From NCBI GenBank assembly GCA_963924555.1, contig OZ004585.1, positions 5,407,488 through 5,471,487 on the forward strand: DNA of 64,000 nt, in the 5' to 3' direction. A model generated the notes under the pieces. It made no database searches. It had not been told where the DNA came from and worked only from the letters and a program-made list of their open reading frames with translations. Below, piece after piece: positions 3,128 to 12,761 of the stretch. Made by a program: the position numbers and the translations under genes. Source of the stretch: Crambe crambe (taxonomy: Eukaryota > Porifera > Demospongiae > Poecilosclerida > Crambeidae). Position 1 is the stretch's first letter, and each line of letters starts with the position of its first letter.

Positions 3128-4142
3128 TCACAGGGCACCACAGGCACAAGGCAGCATGGCACCAAGGACATGTACATAAGTACCATGGACACTAGAGGCA
3201 CACAGACACCCAGACGCAGCATGAATACTAAATGCGTCAAGACACCACAGTGATACTAAGGCACCATGCCACCAAGGACAAAAATGTGACACTAAGGCAT
3301 TGGACACCAGAGGCACCAAGGGCAAATAGACACAGTGCTGTGATACTTTACTCCATGGACACCAGAGGCACCCTTGACACCTGGCACCAAAGGCATCCTT
3401 GACACTGTGACACTATGGCACCAAAGCACCCTTGATACCAGTGGCACCATGACACCCTTGACACCATGACACTAGAGACCATGGCACCAAGGCACCACAG
3501 GAACCCTTGACGCCGTGACACTAAGACTCCTAAGCACCAGTGACACTATGGCACCAAGACACCACAGGCACCCTTGACACCATGACAGTAGAGGCACTAA
3601 GGCCCAGTGACACTATGGCACCAAGGCACCACAGGCACCCTGACACTAGAGGCACTAAGGCTCCTAAGCACCAGTGACACTATGGCACCACAGGCACCCT
3701 TGACACCATGACAGTAGAGGCACTAAGGCCCAGTGACACTATGGCACCAAGGCACCACAGGCACCCTGACACTAGAGGCACTAAGGCTCCTAAGCACCAG
3801 TGACACTATGGCACCACAGACACCCTTGACACCGTGACACTAGAGGCACTAAGACTCTAAGCACCAGTGACACTATGGCACCAAGGCACCACAGGCACCC
3901 TTGACACCGTGACACTACAGGCACTAAGACTCCTAAGCACCAGTGATACTATGGCACCAAGGCACCACAGACACCCTTGACACCGTGACACTAGAGGCAC
4001 TAAGGCTCCTAAGGACCAGTGACACTATGGCACCAAGGCACCCTTGACACCGTGACACTAGAGGCACTAAGGCTCCTAAGCACCAGTGACACTATGGCAC
4101 CACAGGCACCCTTGACACCGTGACACTAGAGGCACTAAGGCT
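3128..4142. repeat. GCACC/TGACAC minisatellite with a 60-85 bp higher-order unit
   Basis: A roughly 1-kb array of related short words (GGCACC, CTTGACACC, GTGACACTA, GAGGCACTAAG, CTCCTAAGCACCAG). From about 3480 these are organised into higher-order units of variable length that differ by presence or absence of a CACCAAGG block. The last unit is split by the transposon that starts at 4149 and resumes at 10562. The few ORFs across it are repeat translations. Confidence 0.9.
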
Positions 4143-4148
4143 CCAGAG

Positions 4149-4449
4149 TATGGCGGGGTATAAGCGTCTTAAACTCTGGGCGAATGTCCCAGTAATCACC
4201 CGGGCATATGTCCGGGCAAATGCCCGGGCAGTTGCCTGGGCACGGCACAAAAAAGGGGCGTGACGACCACACCTTACCTAAAAAGGGCGGGGCAGATCAC
4301 AAGTGGGCGTAGCTGGACTGCAGACAGATGCCCAGGCAACTGCCCGGGCAACTGCCCGGGCAGATGTCTGGGCGAATGCTGGCGTCCAGTAAAGGGTTCA
4401 GGCCAGTCTAGCTTTATGCCCAGGCAGAATCGGAATCAGACTTTGTGTG
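4149..4449. repeat. Left terminal inverted repeat of the 6.4-kb transposon
   Basis: It pairs with 10275-10561 over about 290 bp. The left copy has a stretch of about 15 nt near 4390-4406 that the right copy lacks. The TIR is itself rich in self-complementary GCCCGGGCA words, several in tandem at 4190-4235 and 4330-4375, so each TIR can fold alone. The longer ORFs over it are translations of this repeat. Confidence 0.95.
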
Positions 4450-4471
4450 CCCGTGTGTCTCTAGCACGTAA

Positions 4472-6017
4472 ATGGCAAGAAGAAGTAGGGCTGCTGTTTC
4501 ATTCAGCTCTATAGAAGTTCTAGAGGGCGTAGGAAGACTTCTATCAGAGGTACAGCATTCTTGCAGGGATGGTAGCATCTTCCATGATAGAATTCATGGA
4601 TTTCAACTGCGTCTAAGAGATTCCTCGAGGAATGTAGAACGTCTATCTCACTTGTTAGGAAGGGAGAACCATCAAAACATTATAGATGGTCTGCATGAAG
4701 TGTTGAGATCTTTGGGACAAAGAGGAAGAAGAATAGGTTCCAATGATGATGCTTACATATCTCATCAGGATTTTGATGGTAAACATACCAATAGTAGCTA
4801 CTTGGCAACATTGATATTAAATCAGGGTTCTTTATGATACAGGTCAGCAGGGAAGGCCTCCTTTCTCCATACCACAAAATCAACTCGAGTACCTGGTTGG
4901 AATTAATTTTACTGTTCCTGAAATTGCAACTCTACTCGGTGTGTCTCAGGCAACAGTTCGAAGAAGAATGCAACTGTATGGACTGTCCATTCGACAGACA
5001 TACGCTCCCTTACCTGACACAGAGCTTGATGATTTAGTGGCAGAAATTGTAAGCGAACATCCCAATTCTGGATATAGAATGATCCGTAGCCACCTGCTTA
5101 ATAGAGGACTCAGAATCCAGGAAAGAAGAGTCAGAGAATCACTTGCTCGCACTGATCCATTATCAGTAGCATACAGATGGAGTCGAAATGGCAGGATACA
5201 TCGAAGACAATATTCGGTACCATATCCCAATGCCATTTGGCACATTGATGGCAACATGAGCCTGAACAGGTGGAGCTTTACTGTTCATGGGGCAGTGGAT
5301 GGATACAGCCGCCTTGTGACTTACCTGCATTGTTCAACCTATAACAATTCTGAAACTGTTTTGGCTCAGTTTGTTAGAGGTGGTGAGAGATATGGTTTCC
5401 CATCTCGAGTGAGATCAGACTTTGGAGGAGAGAACATTTCTGTTGCTCACTTTATGACTCTTGTGAGAGGTACTGATCGGGGGAGCCATCTTACGGGAAG
5501 ATCAGTAAACAACCAGCGTATAGAACGCTTTTGGAGGGATGTATTCACTGGATGCCTGAGTACTTACTACCACCTCTTTTATTTCATGGAAAACAATGGC
5601 ATTTTGGATATCGAAAATGACCTGCATATTTTTGCACTTTAGTATGTTTATAGACCTCGAATTAATCGATCTCTGGTTGCATTTCTTGGGGCCTGGAACA
5701 GGCATCCAATACGAACAGCTGGTAACCTAAGTCCAATTCAACTATGGGTTACTGGAATGCTTCAAAACTATCATTCAGCACATTTGCCTATCCAAGAGGT
5801 TTTCGCTTCTGAGGCTACAAGCATGACAGATTGTGTACCTGATGTAGATAGGTCTAGAACCACAGAGTCAGAAGACAATGGATCATTACACGGAGTTCCC
5901 CTCCAAGACCTAGAACAGTCAATTGACCCATTGCAAGAAAGTTTCGTGTGGGGTATTGATATTTATGTTAGTGTTCTGGAATTTCTGATTGATGTGGCCA
6001 GTGAGTCCTCTGATTGA
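4472..6017 (+). CDS. DDE (rve-type) integrase/transposase of the IS3EU-like element
   Basis: Two exons, 4472-4778 and 4843-6017, joined in phase through a 64-bp GT-AG intron, give about 493 codons. It would cut and join the element's ends in the nucleus. After the splice comes an N-terminal helix-turn-helix region (VPEIATLLGVSQATVRRR, about residues 125-145). The DDE core follows: first Asp in WHIDGN (5240-5257), second Asp in RSDFGGEN (5413-5436), Glu in NQRIERFWRD (about 5509-5540). The tail YVYRPRINRSL ... LSPIQLW is typical of this family. An in-frame TAG at 5640-5642 separates the core from this tail, so this copy is probably non-functional unless the stop is read through. The start ATG at 4472 lies just inside the left TIR. 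It converges with the HECT gene, with about 300 bp between the stop codons. Confidence 0.88.
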
Positions 6018-6319
6018 ATGACCTATTATAGCCAATAACCTGTATCAAAATAATATTATTGATGAAGTAATTGCACAAATCTTGTGAAGTTGATTATGGG
6101 AGGAGTGACTGAGTTTAGAGTTATTGAGGTTCATGAGTGATTGTGAAAAAAAGAAAGAGGATAGCTAGCTATGAGTTTAGGTTCATGAGTGATCGTGAAA
6201 AAAAAAGACCATTATTCAAAGATTGTGACTGAATTTAGAGTTAAGGTTCATGAGTGATTATGAAAAAATTGAGCATTGTTCAAAGAGTGATCATGAGTGA
6301 GCAACTGTGAGAGAAGTTA
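6018..6319. repeat. Spacer between convergent transposon genes with a degenerate tandem repeat
   Basis: The phrase AGGTTCATGAGTGAT followed by a GTGAAAAAAA-like run occurs at about 6127, 6180 and 6245, spaced about 55-65 bp. No ORF of note. The 3' ends of both element genes must terminate here; AT-rich AATAATATT-like sequence follows the integrase stop. Confidence 0.6.
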
Positions 6320-9300
6320 TCAAAATACATCGAAAAACCACATATTCCTGTTGTTTATAACAGATGTAAATTCATCAGAAAAGGTAGTGTATGACTCATA
6401 AGATATGGGGAGGTGGAGAGTCATCGTGCATGTGTTTGCTGTGGGTCTTCTTTCGAAGCCTTCCATGGAATTAAATAACACTTTGATTTTCTTGTTGCTA
6501 CAAACCGAAAATCCAGTAATGAAACTGAGAAATCTTACCAGCACTTGAGGAACTAGAGAATAAACAAAACGGCGTAGAAAGTCATATACGGCTTCTTCAG
6601 ATTGATTCTTGAAGTCAGGTTCAGCTATCATCTCCCAGACTCGTGTGGTAGTTGGATGCAACATCTCATACATAGCATCAACCAGCAGTGTGTTGCCGGT
6701 ACACCTATTCCAAAGTGTGGGATGGGAACTGAGCATACCCCTTCTCATTTCACTGAGGGCGTAAAATGGCTTTGCTATCAAGGCATATCTTGCAGCTTGG
6801 GTGACTAACTTAGAAAGGTTTTCACGTGTTGCTACAGCTGACACATAAAATCGGCTCAACATCGGGGTGATTACCCTAGCAATCAAGTCACTTGTTAGTG
6901 ATTCACCTGTCTTTTCCAAAGCCGATCTTTCAAAGTCATCAATGTAGTCATAGAAGGAAGACACTATCTCACCATCAGATAAGGGAACATCCACACCATT
7001 TATCAAAATCTTGGCACAAACAACAGATAAGTTAACGGGGAAATAGCCAGTGAGAATATATGCATGAGATACAAAGCGACCAATATGATAAAACTGTGGG
7101 AGATAAGATGGAATTACTGGTGGCACCTTAGCACTGCTACCATCCATGACACGCTCGAACTCATCCCAGAAACAATTTACTACTTCACGACGTAGACCAC
7201 CCATATCAATCCCACGTTCATCATTGAAGTGGACTTTAATCTCCTTCCAATGTAGATTTTGATCCGAAGCATATGCATCGATTATACAAGAAACAACGTT
7301 AGAGCGATCCACATTTAATGTGGACACGCCATTTTGAATTAGCTTAGCACGAATATTTGCCCGCCCACCATCCATTTCCACTATATCTCGAAAAAATGAC
7401 CTGAAATAGTAATAATTATGTATGTGATTTCAGATGCATGCTTAACACTCTTAGCTAACCTTTCGCTTTCACTTGGAGATGCAGGCTCTACCTGTGTCAG
7501 ATCTACAATTTCGACAGCTTCCTACAGTGCACGATATTAGTGAACTCATAGGTGTAAATACCGGGGGAGGGGGGGCTTTGGGGGCTAAAAATCCCCAGAA
7601 ATTATAATTATTATTTTATAACATAATAAATGAATGTGCTGACTCATGACTCATAACCACATTACATACATGCTGATAGAGGGCAGGCTAAAAATGAATT
7701 TAGAATCCCCCCCACTATAAAATTTATGCCTACACCCATTCCCACACTAGCAAAGAAGATGCCCTCATCAGTTGAACAAGTGTATGTACTAATAATGATA
7801 CTTACGTGAACATCTGGGGGGGTTTCTGGTACAGCAACTTCCTCATTCTGCATAAGGGTATTAATATTTATTATTGGACCTAAATTCTGCTATGTGCGTA
7901 CTTACCTGTTTATTCTCTCCAATTACAACACAGAATGGTGGTAGACCTGATTCAGAAAGTCTCATTTCTCTATTCGTGGTGAGAGGTACTGGTATTGTAG
8001 AAAACCTTGCAAGCACTCGAAAATTTCGTGGGTTAATGGATTCGTGTGAACCAATTAATGCGTAAATGGCCTGTGTATGCGTATAAAAAAATCATGTACC
8101 AGTGATATACATGCATACGTACATCAACTCTGTCAGTCATCAGGAACCGTCTGGATATTCGGCTGCCGTCAGGAAAGAGAACTCGGACTTTCATTATGTT
8201 TGGCAATCCCATGGCAGGCTCTGGTGGTATCGTTAAGCTTAGATCAGAACGGATCTGCCGATGCCACTATTGTTGGTATTCAGAATGAAAGTGGCAACTT
8301 TTTTTTGCACAAGAACTAACCTCATTCATTCTTCTTTGTTGTTGTTGTTCATCCACTTCGTCTATCCTATTTTGAATTTCATCATCTTCAGTAATTTGTC
8401 TTGATATAATACTATTCCTTTGCTGCAGCAGAACATAACATTTGCACTATTGTGGGATCACAGTTTTTAAGACATCACCTGCTCTCTGTCAATCTCTAGG
8501 CTTTGCTGGAAAGCTCTATCTTGCTCTGCTCGTATACGTCTAGACTGGAATGTGCATGTGCAAAATTATATTCAATAGCTTGCTAAGACATAATTAGTAG
8601 CTAATACCTCTTCAAGTGATGCCCTCTCATTGATAGATCCAGCCTGTACTTCGACATCAGAGTGATTTGGTTCTTCGTTTTGACTGGGACTGCTAACACT
8701 AGACTCAGCTTGAACTTCTTGGACAACCTCAGATAAAGTCAGTTCTTCGTTTGGACTAGGCCTGGCACTGCTACCATCAGATCCATCAACAACCACCTCT
8801 TGGTTAGCTCCAAACTCATTCGGTTCTATGGCGTCATCAAGCTCATCAATAATTTGCTGCCCACCTCCAGCCTCTTGACTAAAGCTAGTGCTGTGTGTGC
8901 CAGCATCTCTGTGCATCGTTGCCATGCCACTACTATGTGAATTGCCACCATCGACTGGAGAACGAGTTAGCAAATCACGAAGAGTTGATTCACCATGAAG
9001 TCCACCTACTGAAGTAGTGTCAACCCGAGATTGAGGAGAACTATGGGTTGAGAAACCAAGGGATTCTTCAGGGGAATAGCGTGATGATCGAGGGGATCTG
9101 TTGTCAGTAGAGGTATGCCGAGTTCGAGGGGGTCTAAATAAATCACTATAGAACTCTGAAAATAAAATAAGTTATAGTGTCATCTCCAGAATTGAATTAT
9201 GCCTCCTACATAAATCGCACATAATTATAACACACCTGAATCACTTTCTGAAGTACTTATTAATTCAGGTTGATGATTGCACGTGTACATATGATCGGGA

Positions 9301-10214
9301 ATGTCTGCAATCCTGATCTGTGATACACAGTCAATGCAATCTATGGATCTCTTGGGTGTATATGCCTAAATTTGATGTATAATAAACACTAAGTTAGCTA
9401 TTAGACTGGAAGGAATTACCTCCACTTGTGATACTCGGTGTGATCCACGTACCTCCTTCAAGGGCCGAATATAAACACGGCCTTTTCTCCCTATTGAGGT
9501 TTTAAGCATCTCCACCGTGAAATATGGTAAAAACGGCTGGTCATTGCTTGGTATTCGAGTTGGGTCATCGATGGACAGGGGAACGATAACTTGGTGCCCT
9601 GGACCCCCTGCTCTGCAAAACTCATATGACGTGTTCTTGAGCATAGGGTATAGCGATACAACAAGGTAGTGTAACTCAGTTGAGCTGAGAAGGTCAAGTT
9701 CTAATGGTTCCTCATCTCTGCTGAACCATAGAGTTCCCATACCATCTCTGCAGAGGTCGTCCATTGCTGATTTGGTGGGCACTCTGCTAATATCTGGCTT
9801 AGAGAGACAGCAGGGTATGGTTTTCCATTTTGAGATCTTTCGTCTTTTTTGGCGTCTACCCCCCTGATTCAAGAATGGGAACCTGGTACCTAGCTCTGTT
9901 GGAAGAGGAGCAGTGGAGTTAAGGAGTGATAACCCATGCTGTACTGCCCGGTACACTCTCTCTGTAGCACTGGCTATTGGTGCAGTACCTGTCACTGTTG
10001 CAGTACTACTTGATACAGCAGTTGCTGCTGGAGTGGAAGATCTGCTTCTACCTCGTCCTCGGCTCCTACTGAAAGATGATGGAGATGGCTCTATAAACTC
10101 TTCCGCAGAATCAGTTGTCGTTGTTGTATCTCTGCTGGAGAGACTCTGAGCTCGAATCCTAGACGAAGATAGTTGCAAACGGCGCCCTCTGGATCTTATA
10201 GGCCTTTCAGTCAT
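6320..10214 (-). CDS. Transposon-borne UBX-HECT E3 ubiquitin ligase
   Basis: Ten exons (9420-10214, 9236-9365, 8608-9155, 8479-8544, 8321-8422, 8123-8254, 7906-8070, 7806-7847, 7460-7521, 6320-7400) join without a phase error into about 1040 residues with no internal stop. The N-terminus is Arg/Ser-rich. The end of exon 1 has the block LYPMLKN ... FCRAGG ... YIRPL that I recall from fish transposon-linked HECT proteins. A Ser-rich acidic linker follows. Next come a helix EQDRAFQQSLEIDREQ and a Q-rich coil, then a UBX fold (VRVLFPDGSRISRRF to GLPPFCVVIGEN, about residues 570-645) in the order seen in FAF1-type proteins. The p97-contacting FPR loop appears to read STIP instead. The HECT domain (about 690-1040) keeps the catalytic Cys in TANTCTM near residue 1005 (about 6430). 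Such a ligase would take ubiquitin from an E2 as a thioester; its role for the element is unknown. Confidence 0.85.
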
Positions 10215-10274
10215 CTCTAGCTCTAGCTATATTACACATGCATGCTCTACACCAGCTAGCCCGTAAATCAGGCT

Positions 10275-10561
10275 GACACACAAAGTCTGATTCCGATTCT
10301 GCCTGGGCATAAAGCTAGACTGAACGCCAGCATTCGCCCAGACATCTGCCCGGGCAATTGCCCGGGCAGTTGCCTGGGCATCTGTCTGCAGTCCAGCTAC
10401 GCCCACTTGTGATCTGCCCCGCCCTTTTTAGGTAAGGTGTGGTCGTCACGCCCTTTTTTTTGTGCCGTGCCCAGGCAACTGCCCGGGCATTTGCCCGGAC
10501 ATATGCCCGGGTGATTACTGGGACATTCGCCCAGAGTTTAAGACGCTTATACCCCGCCATA
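10275..10561. repeat. Right terminal inverted repeat of the 6.4-kb transposon
   Basis: Reverse complement of 4149-4449, ending in CGCTTATACCCCGCCATA at 10561 next to the CCAGAG duplication at 10562-10567. The start codon of the HECT gene (10214) lies about 60 bp inside it, so its promoter probably lies in or beside the TIR. Confidence 0.95.
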
Positions 10562-10567
10562 CCAGAG

Positions 10568-10919
10568 CACCAGTAAAAATTATCTTACCTATCATGCAGA
10601 TCTGACACATGCTGGAGAAAAGGAGGTCAAAGTTCGTTGGATCTCTGGGCATAACGTGATTCACTAAAATTTGTGCGGGGGACCTGCCGGGTCAGGGGAA
10701 AACCCTAACCCCACCCCCTTGTACAACAACAACAACAACGGATTATAATGAAGCATCAATGTCCAGATCGTATGAGTTTGAGCATGGTCTGAATCATCAT
10801 GAATCTTAGCCAGTTGGTTGATTTTTAGCTTTTTAGCTAGCTATGTAGTCTAGTAATCGCGTGCCAGCTAAGCTATAGCTTTACTATAACGGAATAGTTC
10901 AGTAAAACACACTACACAG
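10568..10919. other. Intergenic, nothing recognised
   Basis: It starts with the remnant of the minisatellite unit, then unique sequence with a CCCTAACCCCACCCCC stretch and a short (ACA)n run near 10725. The promoter and first exon of the following GLEBS gene may lie here, but I cannot place a start codon. Confidence 0.4.
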
Positions 10920-12761
10920 CCTTGGAGCAGAAATGTTTGGAGGTGGGACAGCAGTGAAGTACAAAGCAATAAAAGGAACTGACTCCTTCAACAAATATGG
11001 GCGGACTGTTAATGTGAATAACTATCCTGCACTGCATCACAGCTGCCAAAAGCTACTCCCGGAAAAGCATAGAGGAACTTCGATTTGAGGACTACTCTGC
11101 TGGGCGTAAGGGTCCCTCGGGTGCCAATGCATGCCCACCCACAGGCAAGTCCCCCCGTTATGATTACGTATGATAATATGCACATAGCACAGCAGGAGGA
11201 AGAGGTCGACAATTACTGACACAGACCACCAACACTGAACTGATAAGTGGACTAGAACAAAGAGCAGGTAGCCTTGGAGCAAGAATATTTGGAGGAGGGG
11301 TGACTGGGACAGCAGTGAAGTACAAAGCAACAAAAGGAACTGATTCATTCTGTAAGAATGGGCTGACTGCCAATAGCTACTATAGGAAAAGCATAGAGGA
11401 ACTTCGATTTGAAGACTACTCTGCTGGGCTGAAGCTTAAGGGTCCCTTGGATGCAAATGATGAGGTTGCAGGCTATGATAACTATGTACATTGTATTATG
11501 TAGGCGGTACAGAAGGAAGAAGACGTCGACAGTTACAGACCACCAACACTGGACTGATAAGTGGACTAAAACAAGGAGTAGGCAGCCTTGGAGCAGGAAT
11601 ATTAGGAATTGGGGTGACTGGGACAGCAGTGAAGTACAAAGCAACAAAAGGAACTGATTGGAGTAGTGGGTCAACTGTTCATGTAAATACTACAATGCAT
11701 TGCATCACAGCTGCCAATAACTACTCCTGGAAAAGCATGGAGGAACTTCGATTTGAGGACTACTCTGCTGGGCGGGGCGTAAGGGTTCCTTGGGGTGCAA
11801 ATGGTGAGGATCCAGATGTACACCCTCCCATAGCCATCGTAATAATTTATATATATATATAGGTAGTACAGCAGGACAAAGCGGAGAGAGAGGTGGTTTA
11901 CTGACACAGACCACCAACACTGGTAGACTCAGAGTGGACAGCCTTGTTGGATCAGGAATATTTGGAGGGACAGTAGGGAAGTACAAAGCAACAAAAGGAA
12001 CTGATTCATTCAATAAGAATGGGCTGACTGTTCATGTGAATACTACAATGCATTGCATCACAGCTGCCAACAACTACTCCTGGAAAAGCATGGAGGAACT
12101 TCGATTTGAGGACTACTCCGTTGGACGCAAGGGTCCCTCAGTGGACTCTTTAGGATCTCTGCATGGATTACAACACTCAACGAAAGCAATCATGAAGACA
12201 GAATTAGGAAAGGTAAGTTGAATCAACTCACAGGTCATTTTTATTATAGCTACAGACTTAGCTGGCTAGAGCTTTCATAGGTTGAACATGGTAGCTAGCT
12301 AATAAGGTGGCTATTTAGCTTCATGCATTAGGCTAAGGATCAAATCTATCACAACACATATTTCAACAAACATAACTTTTACTAGCTATGCATGTCAATT
12401 CCCTAAGCCATATCAGAAGACCAGCAGCAGGATTCATTTTCATGATCATAATTGGACTTCACATCAAGTGCCTTCAACGCAGCAACAAGTACCTGGATCA
12501 TATCCAACCCACCAACAGTCAACAACACAAAAGACGGTTTGTGATGCTGCAGCAGTTGTACATGAGCATGCCTGCACAGATGCTTCCACTATGCACACAG
12601 CTGGAGTCCAAGGTAGCTACTGAGATTTCACTTTTAGCTATAAGCTATTGACCATGATGATATCTCTATTATTTTTAGTGGGAAGGTCTCTTCAAGATGT
12701 CGAACTGAACAGCATTGCAGATCAACTGGAAGAAGTAGTTATTACTGAAGCTGATTCATAG
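10920..12761 (+). CDS. NUP98-like gene of four tandem GLEBS (Gle2/Rae1-binding) modules, partly decayed
   Basis: Four copies of one module start near 10920, 11189, 11511 and 11874. Each reads G-T-A-V-K-Y-K-A-x-K-G-T-D, then (in modules 3 and 4) VHVNTTMHCITAANNYSWKS, then EELRFEDYS and GRKGP. This matches the NUP98 segment before and within its GLEBS motif (KSLEELRLEDY ... NRKGP), which binds Gle2/RAE1 at the nuclear pore. Module 4 (to 12212) is whole. Module 3 is open, with a shifted end. Module 2 lacks the central dozen residues in frame. Module 1 has a frameshift near 11018. The module 3 to 4 splice is in phase (donor about 11809, acceptor about 11873). Downstream exons at about 12420-12611 (Gln/Thr-rich) and 12680-12761 (acidic, stop 12759-12761) complete the end. 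FG repeats and the NUP98 autoproteolytic domain are absent. The 5' end is not found. Confidence 0.65.

Follow-up and report, generated by a model that had tools for sequence, protein, structure and literature searches.

The 64,000-nucleotide stretch of Crambe crambe DNA analyzed here (the window, whose numbering we use throughout) contains a 6413-bp element at positions 4149–10561, flanked by two copies of CCAGAG. Comparison of the flanks places the left copy of this target site duplication at 4143–4148 and the right copy at 10562–10567 (no strand assigned). Both terminal inverted repeats are whole, with inverted pairs at 94–100%. The left repeat (4149–4449, plus strand; about 300 bp) starts TATGGCGGGG and is made up of GCCCGGGCA-type subrepeats, and the right one (10277–10561, minus strand; 285 bp) ends CCCCGCCATA, giving the element TATGG..CCATA termini with TA..TA ends. 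Thus, the transposon does have the whole ends and target duplication that the original prediction had ascribed to it. A minisatellite-like array of GACACTAGAGGCACTAAGGCTCC and its variants occupies positions 3128–4143 and stops at the left target duplication, with the element sitting at the array edge. Immediately to the right of the element lie four tandem exon-like repeats (10917–12218, plus strand). The three repeat ORFs tested all match Nup98 GLEBS (PF21240; E 2.1e-14, 4.1e-11 and 1.1e-4, the last below the cut-off), and the one tested against the PDB matches Nup98 (3.4e-11); a tandem array of predicted Gle2/Rae1-binding segments would be odd.

The element carries an integrase gene on the plus strand, read as a two-exon frame with exon 1 at 4472–4778 and exon 2 at 4843–6017. 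Exon 2 encodes a helix-turn-helix ahead of an rva_4/rve DDE core, matched in Pfam by HTH_17 (E 1e-6) and rva_4 (PF24764; E 2.8e-64), and no zinc-finger family appears in the Pfam list for this exon. The D, D and E residues are invariant across a five-row integrase alignment. In the window copy the frame of 493 codons is interrupted by a single TAG at codon 369 (5640–5642), which is the stop previously noted in this gene.

TA..TA ends, a 6-bp target duplication and a DDE integrase-like transposase without an HHCC finger characterize the IS3EU/GingerRoot group, and all three are found here. The 6-bp duplication occurs at different sites in five of the six copies that have both ends (the window copy, L013, L014, L016 and L017); the sixth, L015, has neither a 6-bp duplication nor matching flanks. 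Judging from its ends, duplication and transposase domain, the element is an IS3EU/GingerRoot-type DNA transposon. IS3EU elements are described in the main text of Kojima and Bao (2023) as having TA..TA ends and a target duplication that is usually 6 bp (PMC10045372), and the main text on fungal IS3EU elements gives TAYGG..CCRTA ends and 6-bp duplications (PMC12730594).

The second gene lies on the minus strand, where ten exons between 10214 and 6320 join into a frame of 1044 aa with all junctions in phase and no internal stop; GT..AG borders are present at all nine introns in the five copies with the complete region. Exon 1 (9420–10214) starts with an ATG at 10214 and encodes a conserved N-terminal domain at residues ~129–252 (9830–9459), exon 2 (9236–9365) a C2HC finger, CIDC...HMYTC, at residues 275–294, and exon 3 (8608–9155) a low-complexity linker. 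A FAF1-like helix, EQDRAFQQSLEIDREQ, is encoded by exon 4 (8479–8544) and continues in exon 5 (8321–8422). The first half of the UBX domain is encoded by exon 6 (8123–8266) and the second half, without an FPR loop (RFSTIPVPL), by exon 7 (7906–8070). Linkers in exons 8 (7806–7847) and 9 (7460–7521) lead to exon 10 (6320–7400), which encodes the HECT domain and ends with the stop codon at 6320–6322. The model is based on splice sites, phase, domain continuity over introns and an intron position common to distant relatives. The count of about 1040 codons in ten exons with no stop was therefore accurate, and, as a prediction from sequence, the ten-exon model that places UBX and HECT in one gene within a whole transposon is confirmed.

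Pfam finds HECT in the joined protein at residues 778–1036 (E 3.3e-9; 37.3 bits, and 41 bits for the exon alone, against a cut-off of 23.9). The putative catalytic cysteine is C1009 (codon starting at 6430), in a TC motif whose position in the C-lobe we take to be that of the HECT catalytic Cys; every one of the 11 HECT loci inspected, the window and ten related ones, has this active-site motif. The claim that the HECT domain keeps its catalytic Cys is thus upheld. UBX is found at residues 572–636 (E 3.2e-5; 24.5 bits in the joined protein), and the scores for the window, 24.5–28.3 bits, exceed the Pfam cut-off of 21. In the PDB this part matches FAF1 (FAS-associated factor 1) best (phmmer 1.6e-7; helix plus UBX), in line with the FAF1-like fold first proposed. 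The N-terminal domain and the C2HC finger have no significant Pfam match. Both are conserved in the related loci L022 and L023, and pieces of the N-terminal domain also occur at C9:5612814–5613291 of the C. crambe genome; an AlphaFold model of the domain from two sequences only has a mean pLDDT of 33.5. To our knowledge, no host protein contains both UBX and HECT.

UBX varies in how well it is recognized across related elements. With junctions set at GT..AG, L031 scores 44.3 bits and L022 32.7, both above the cut-off of 21; junction correction raised these scores from 37.0 and 25.9, respectively, which supports the splice sites. Two others fall below the cut-off (L024, 14.0 bits; L026, 18.8 bits), and L025 and L029 have no Pfam UBX hit but align in the equivalent position, following the same helix. 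Upstream of HECT, L034 has the helix without a clear UBX, and L032 has neither the helix nor a clear UBX. A six-row profile of the UBX stretch, made with uncorrected junctions, retrieves UBX proteins as its top PDB matches, weakly (best E 0.0086); among the matches listed, 19 of 25 chains are UBX proteins, counting p47 and KIAA0794, which we assume to be such, and six are not. A UBX profile search of the C. crambe genome gave three matches, none within the element, because an intron divides the domain and the search proceeds exon by exon.

That intron is informative in its own right. In each of the eight loci checked (the window, L022–L026, L029 and L031, representing seven lineages, with L032–L034 left out), an intron starting with GT interrupts UBX at the same point, after the second strand and before the first helix. 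Its length by hand marks is 43–106 nt; the AG acceptor is offset from the mark by a few bases in L022, L023 and L024. The shared position indicates that UBX is part of a single old gene and favors the ten-exon model. The FPR loop, which is the p97-binding loop in the UBX domain of FAF1, is absent from the window, present in L031 (QFPRQ) and replaced by MPR in L024. Since the window UBX lacks this loop, in the window lineage it is more likely to be a protein-binding module than a p97 adaptor.

Our copy search covered the C. crambe genome (143 Mb, 119 contigs), and the resulting counts are lower bounds. At least six copies have both ends (the window and L013–L017); C3 holds a further piece of ~3 kb, and C20 two left-end fragments. 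The six are about 1% diverged, with pairwise differences of 0.1–0.6% in the ligase coding exons and 0–1.1% in the introns, and the window copy is young. Two of them, L014 and L015 (C1:5438679–5451653), have their integrase ends facing each other with ~130 bp between. The integrase is open in five of the six, its stop being private to the window copy, and the ligase is open in three (the window, L015 and L017) and broken in three: L016 carries a 1-bp frameshift, L014 a stop, and L013 has lost ~320 bp. The pairing of a dead integrase with a clean ligase had been read as a possible sign of selection. We reject this inference, as the copy counts mean that the contrast between the two genes in the window says nothing on selection.

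Beyond the window family, the two genes are repeatedly found together. The C. crambe genome yielded 155 integrase matches and 46 HECT exon matches; the latter were merged into 35 loci, and the linkage count used 111 of the 155 integrase matches. An integrase lies within 5 kb of HECT at 28 of the 35 loci and is convergent with it at 27, where about 0.8% would be expected by chance to have a convergent integrase within 5 kb, given the integrase list used. Without the window's own family (seven loci), 21 of 28 HECT loci have a convergent integrase, although some of these 21 are close pairs and not all are independent. The remaining eight of the 35, which have no convergent integrase within 5 kb, are all on C3 and count against our best explanation. 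C3 also holds numerous integrase and HECT pieces that are short or broken, and it may represent a chromosome with many repeats or little recombination. There are also integrase relatives with open frames of ~400–470 aa and no HECT match nearby (for example, C3:9518502 and C5:5793372), and such loci may carry other accessory genes.

Nine loci beyond the window family (L022–L026 and L031–L034) were read in part. HECT identity of relatives to the window is 27–37%, and L022/L023 and L026/L033 form close pairs. A further locus, L029, on a contig in a metagenome-assembled genome (MAG) of an Iophon sponge symbiont, has an integrase and a convergent HECT, 61–62% identical to L025. Scanning prokaryote genomes with the integrase alignment gave 33 pattern matches and four confirmed loci, all in sponge-symbiont MAGs, which we take, L029 included, as sponge host contamination in symbiont bins; among these four short contigs the ligase is visible by tblastn on L029 only. 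No relative was found in viral contigs scanned with the HECT exon, the integrase and the alignments of each. HECT and integrase distances correlate across eight lineages (Mantel r 0.62, p 0.016; without L023, L032 and L033). This is modest evidence that the pair may travel together.

Codon positions show how the ligase has been maintained over the longer term. In HECT, second positions are kept more often than third positions between the window and L022 (0.62 vs. 0.38; p 4e-10), between the window and L025 (0.57 vs. 0.34; p 1e-9) and between L025 and L029 (0.80 vs. 0.41; p 3e-25). The corresponding values are 0.64 and 0.23 for UBX exon 6 (p 1e-4; 44 codons) and 0.63 and 0.34 for the N-terminal domain (p 9e-8), and the integrase core has the same pattern. 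By this measure, long-term purifying selection is shown for the N-terminal domain, the UBX exon and HECT between old lineages. Within the young family, the signal of selection is weak: the six copies differ by 17 nonsynonymous changes (one of them a stop) and 10 synonymous ones (p 0.07 against neutral), and dN/dS is 0.36 (22 changes, p 0.019) between the window and a 96% partial copy on C3 whose exon 1 has a 32-nt gap and whose HECT is incomplete. In the close pairs, dN/dS is 0.81 for HECT and 1.25 for the N-terminal domain of L022/L023, and 0.56 for L026/L033, none different from neutral. The original prediction had offered selection or extreme youth as alternative reasons for the clean ligase; both hold, at different depths, with youth seen in the small pairwise differences between ligase exons and purifying selection apparent between old lineages.

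Taken together, the window contains a young two-gene transposon of the IS3EU/GingerRoot type in which a DDE integrase is accompanied by a convergent, predicted HECT E3 ligase, and we consider it probable that this ligase helps the element. Because distant relatives have the same gene pair, the ligase has the look of a functional component retained over a long time, not of a recent stowaway, and on this comparative evidence transposons of this group have long carried UBX-HECT as a second gene. The integrase would provide the DDE enzyme for cutting and joining. The N-terminal half of the ligase, comprising the unnamed domain, the C2HC finger and the helix with UBX, would bind a substrate or partner, and the ligase, presumably made and active, would ubiquitylate a protein that restrains transposition or acts after it, to the element's benefit. 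The likeliest target would be a host silencing or repair factor, followed by the integrase itself or the integrase-DNA complex. A specific version, in which HECT ubiquitylates the DNA-clamped integrase and UBX passes it to p97 for extraction in the manner of ClpX, strikes us as very doubtful. The unfoldase ClpX acts in this way for phage Mu. Under that version, L031-like lineages would keep the p97-binding loop and the window lineage would have swapped it for another contact.

A different target logic would make the ligase a brake. If it acted on the element's own integrase to lower its dose, the result would be self-limitation instead of help, and the fact that the two genes are paired convergently and show correlated divergence would be compatible with this, as would the finding of broken ligases beside open integrases in three of six copies, compared with one stopped integrase in six, since selfish copies might be expected to lose a brake. 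These counts are tiny, however, and the ligase has a frame of twice the length; in addition, long-term retention over lineages argues for a benefit to the element; we therefore regard self-limitation as unlikely.

Alternatively, the ligase could be a passenger, a host gene picked up recently and clean only because the copies are young. The ~1% divergence of the copies, the ligase already broken in half of them and dN/dS values in close pairs that are not below neutral would all fit a passenger. The deeper comparisons do not: the same two-gene layout is found where HECT is only 27–37% identical, and in a contig from another sponge, codon positions are constrained between lineages, and the UBX intron is common to every locus checked, so that recent capture seems highly improbable. 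Nor does it seem at all probable that UBX and HECT are separate neighboring genes or transcripts. The 284-bp intron between exons 8 and 9 could mark a boundary between them, yet the window junctions are all in phase in a joined frame without a stop, and the order of helix, UBX-like stretch and HECT on one strand recurs in seven lineages (the window, L022/L023, L024, L025, L026/L033, L029 and L031).

A ubiquitin ligase retained next to its integrase through deep divergence would be a case, open to testing, of a DNA transposon that places ubiquitin marks in its host, and the many lineages in one genome allow ligase–integrase co-evolution to be measured. Transposons with ubiquitin- or SUMO-kind proteases are known. 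Our searches of open-licence PMC returned no ubiquitin ligase in a transposon among the titles and abstract openings listed, and nothing on IS3EU with HECT, on HECT with UBX and a transposase, or on HECT with ubiquitin and a transposase in Porifera.

Each part of the predicted ligase has counterparts among known proteins. It resembles FAF1 in the EQDxAYxxSLxxDR helix and in the initial portion of UBX, which are the segments matched by phmmer, and differs in that the FPR loop is not kept; we know of no HECT domain in FAF1. With HECT ligases of the NEDD4/HUWE1/TOM1 kind it shares the catalytic TC motif. A five-row profile of the element HECT retrieves NEDD4 (2.9e-13), followed by TOM1, HUWE1 and AREL1, whereas the window HECT exon alone finds none of this kind by phmmer at E 0.01, and the N-terminal architecture is unlike theirs. 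As a transposon, the element agrees with the IS3EU/GingerRoot group in its TA..TA ends, 6-bp duplication and integrase-like DDE transposase without an HHCC finger, and differs in its second gene, as HECT, UBX and ubiquitin are not named in the main text of the paper describing that group (PMC10045372). The accessory genes of fungal IS3EU elements are a TET/JBP dioxygenase and an alpha-kinase, with HECT and ubiquitin absent from the main text of that report; like the window element, these transposons have the same kind of ends, 6-bp duplications and an accessory enzyme gene, the alpha-kinase, oriented opposite to the transposase (PMC12730594).
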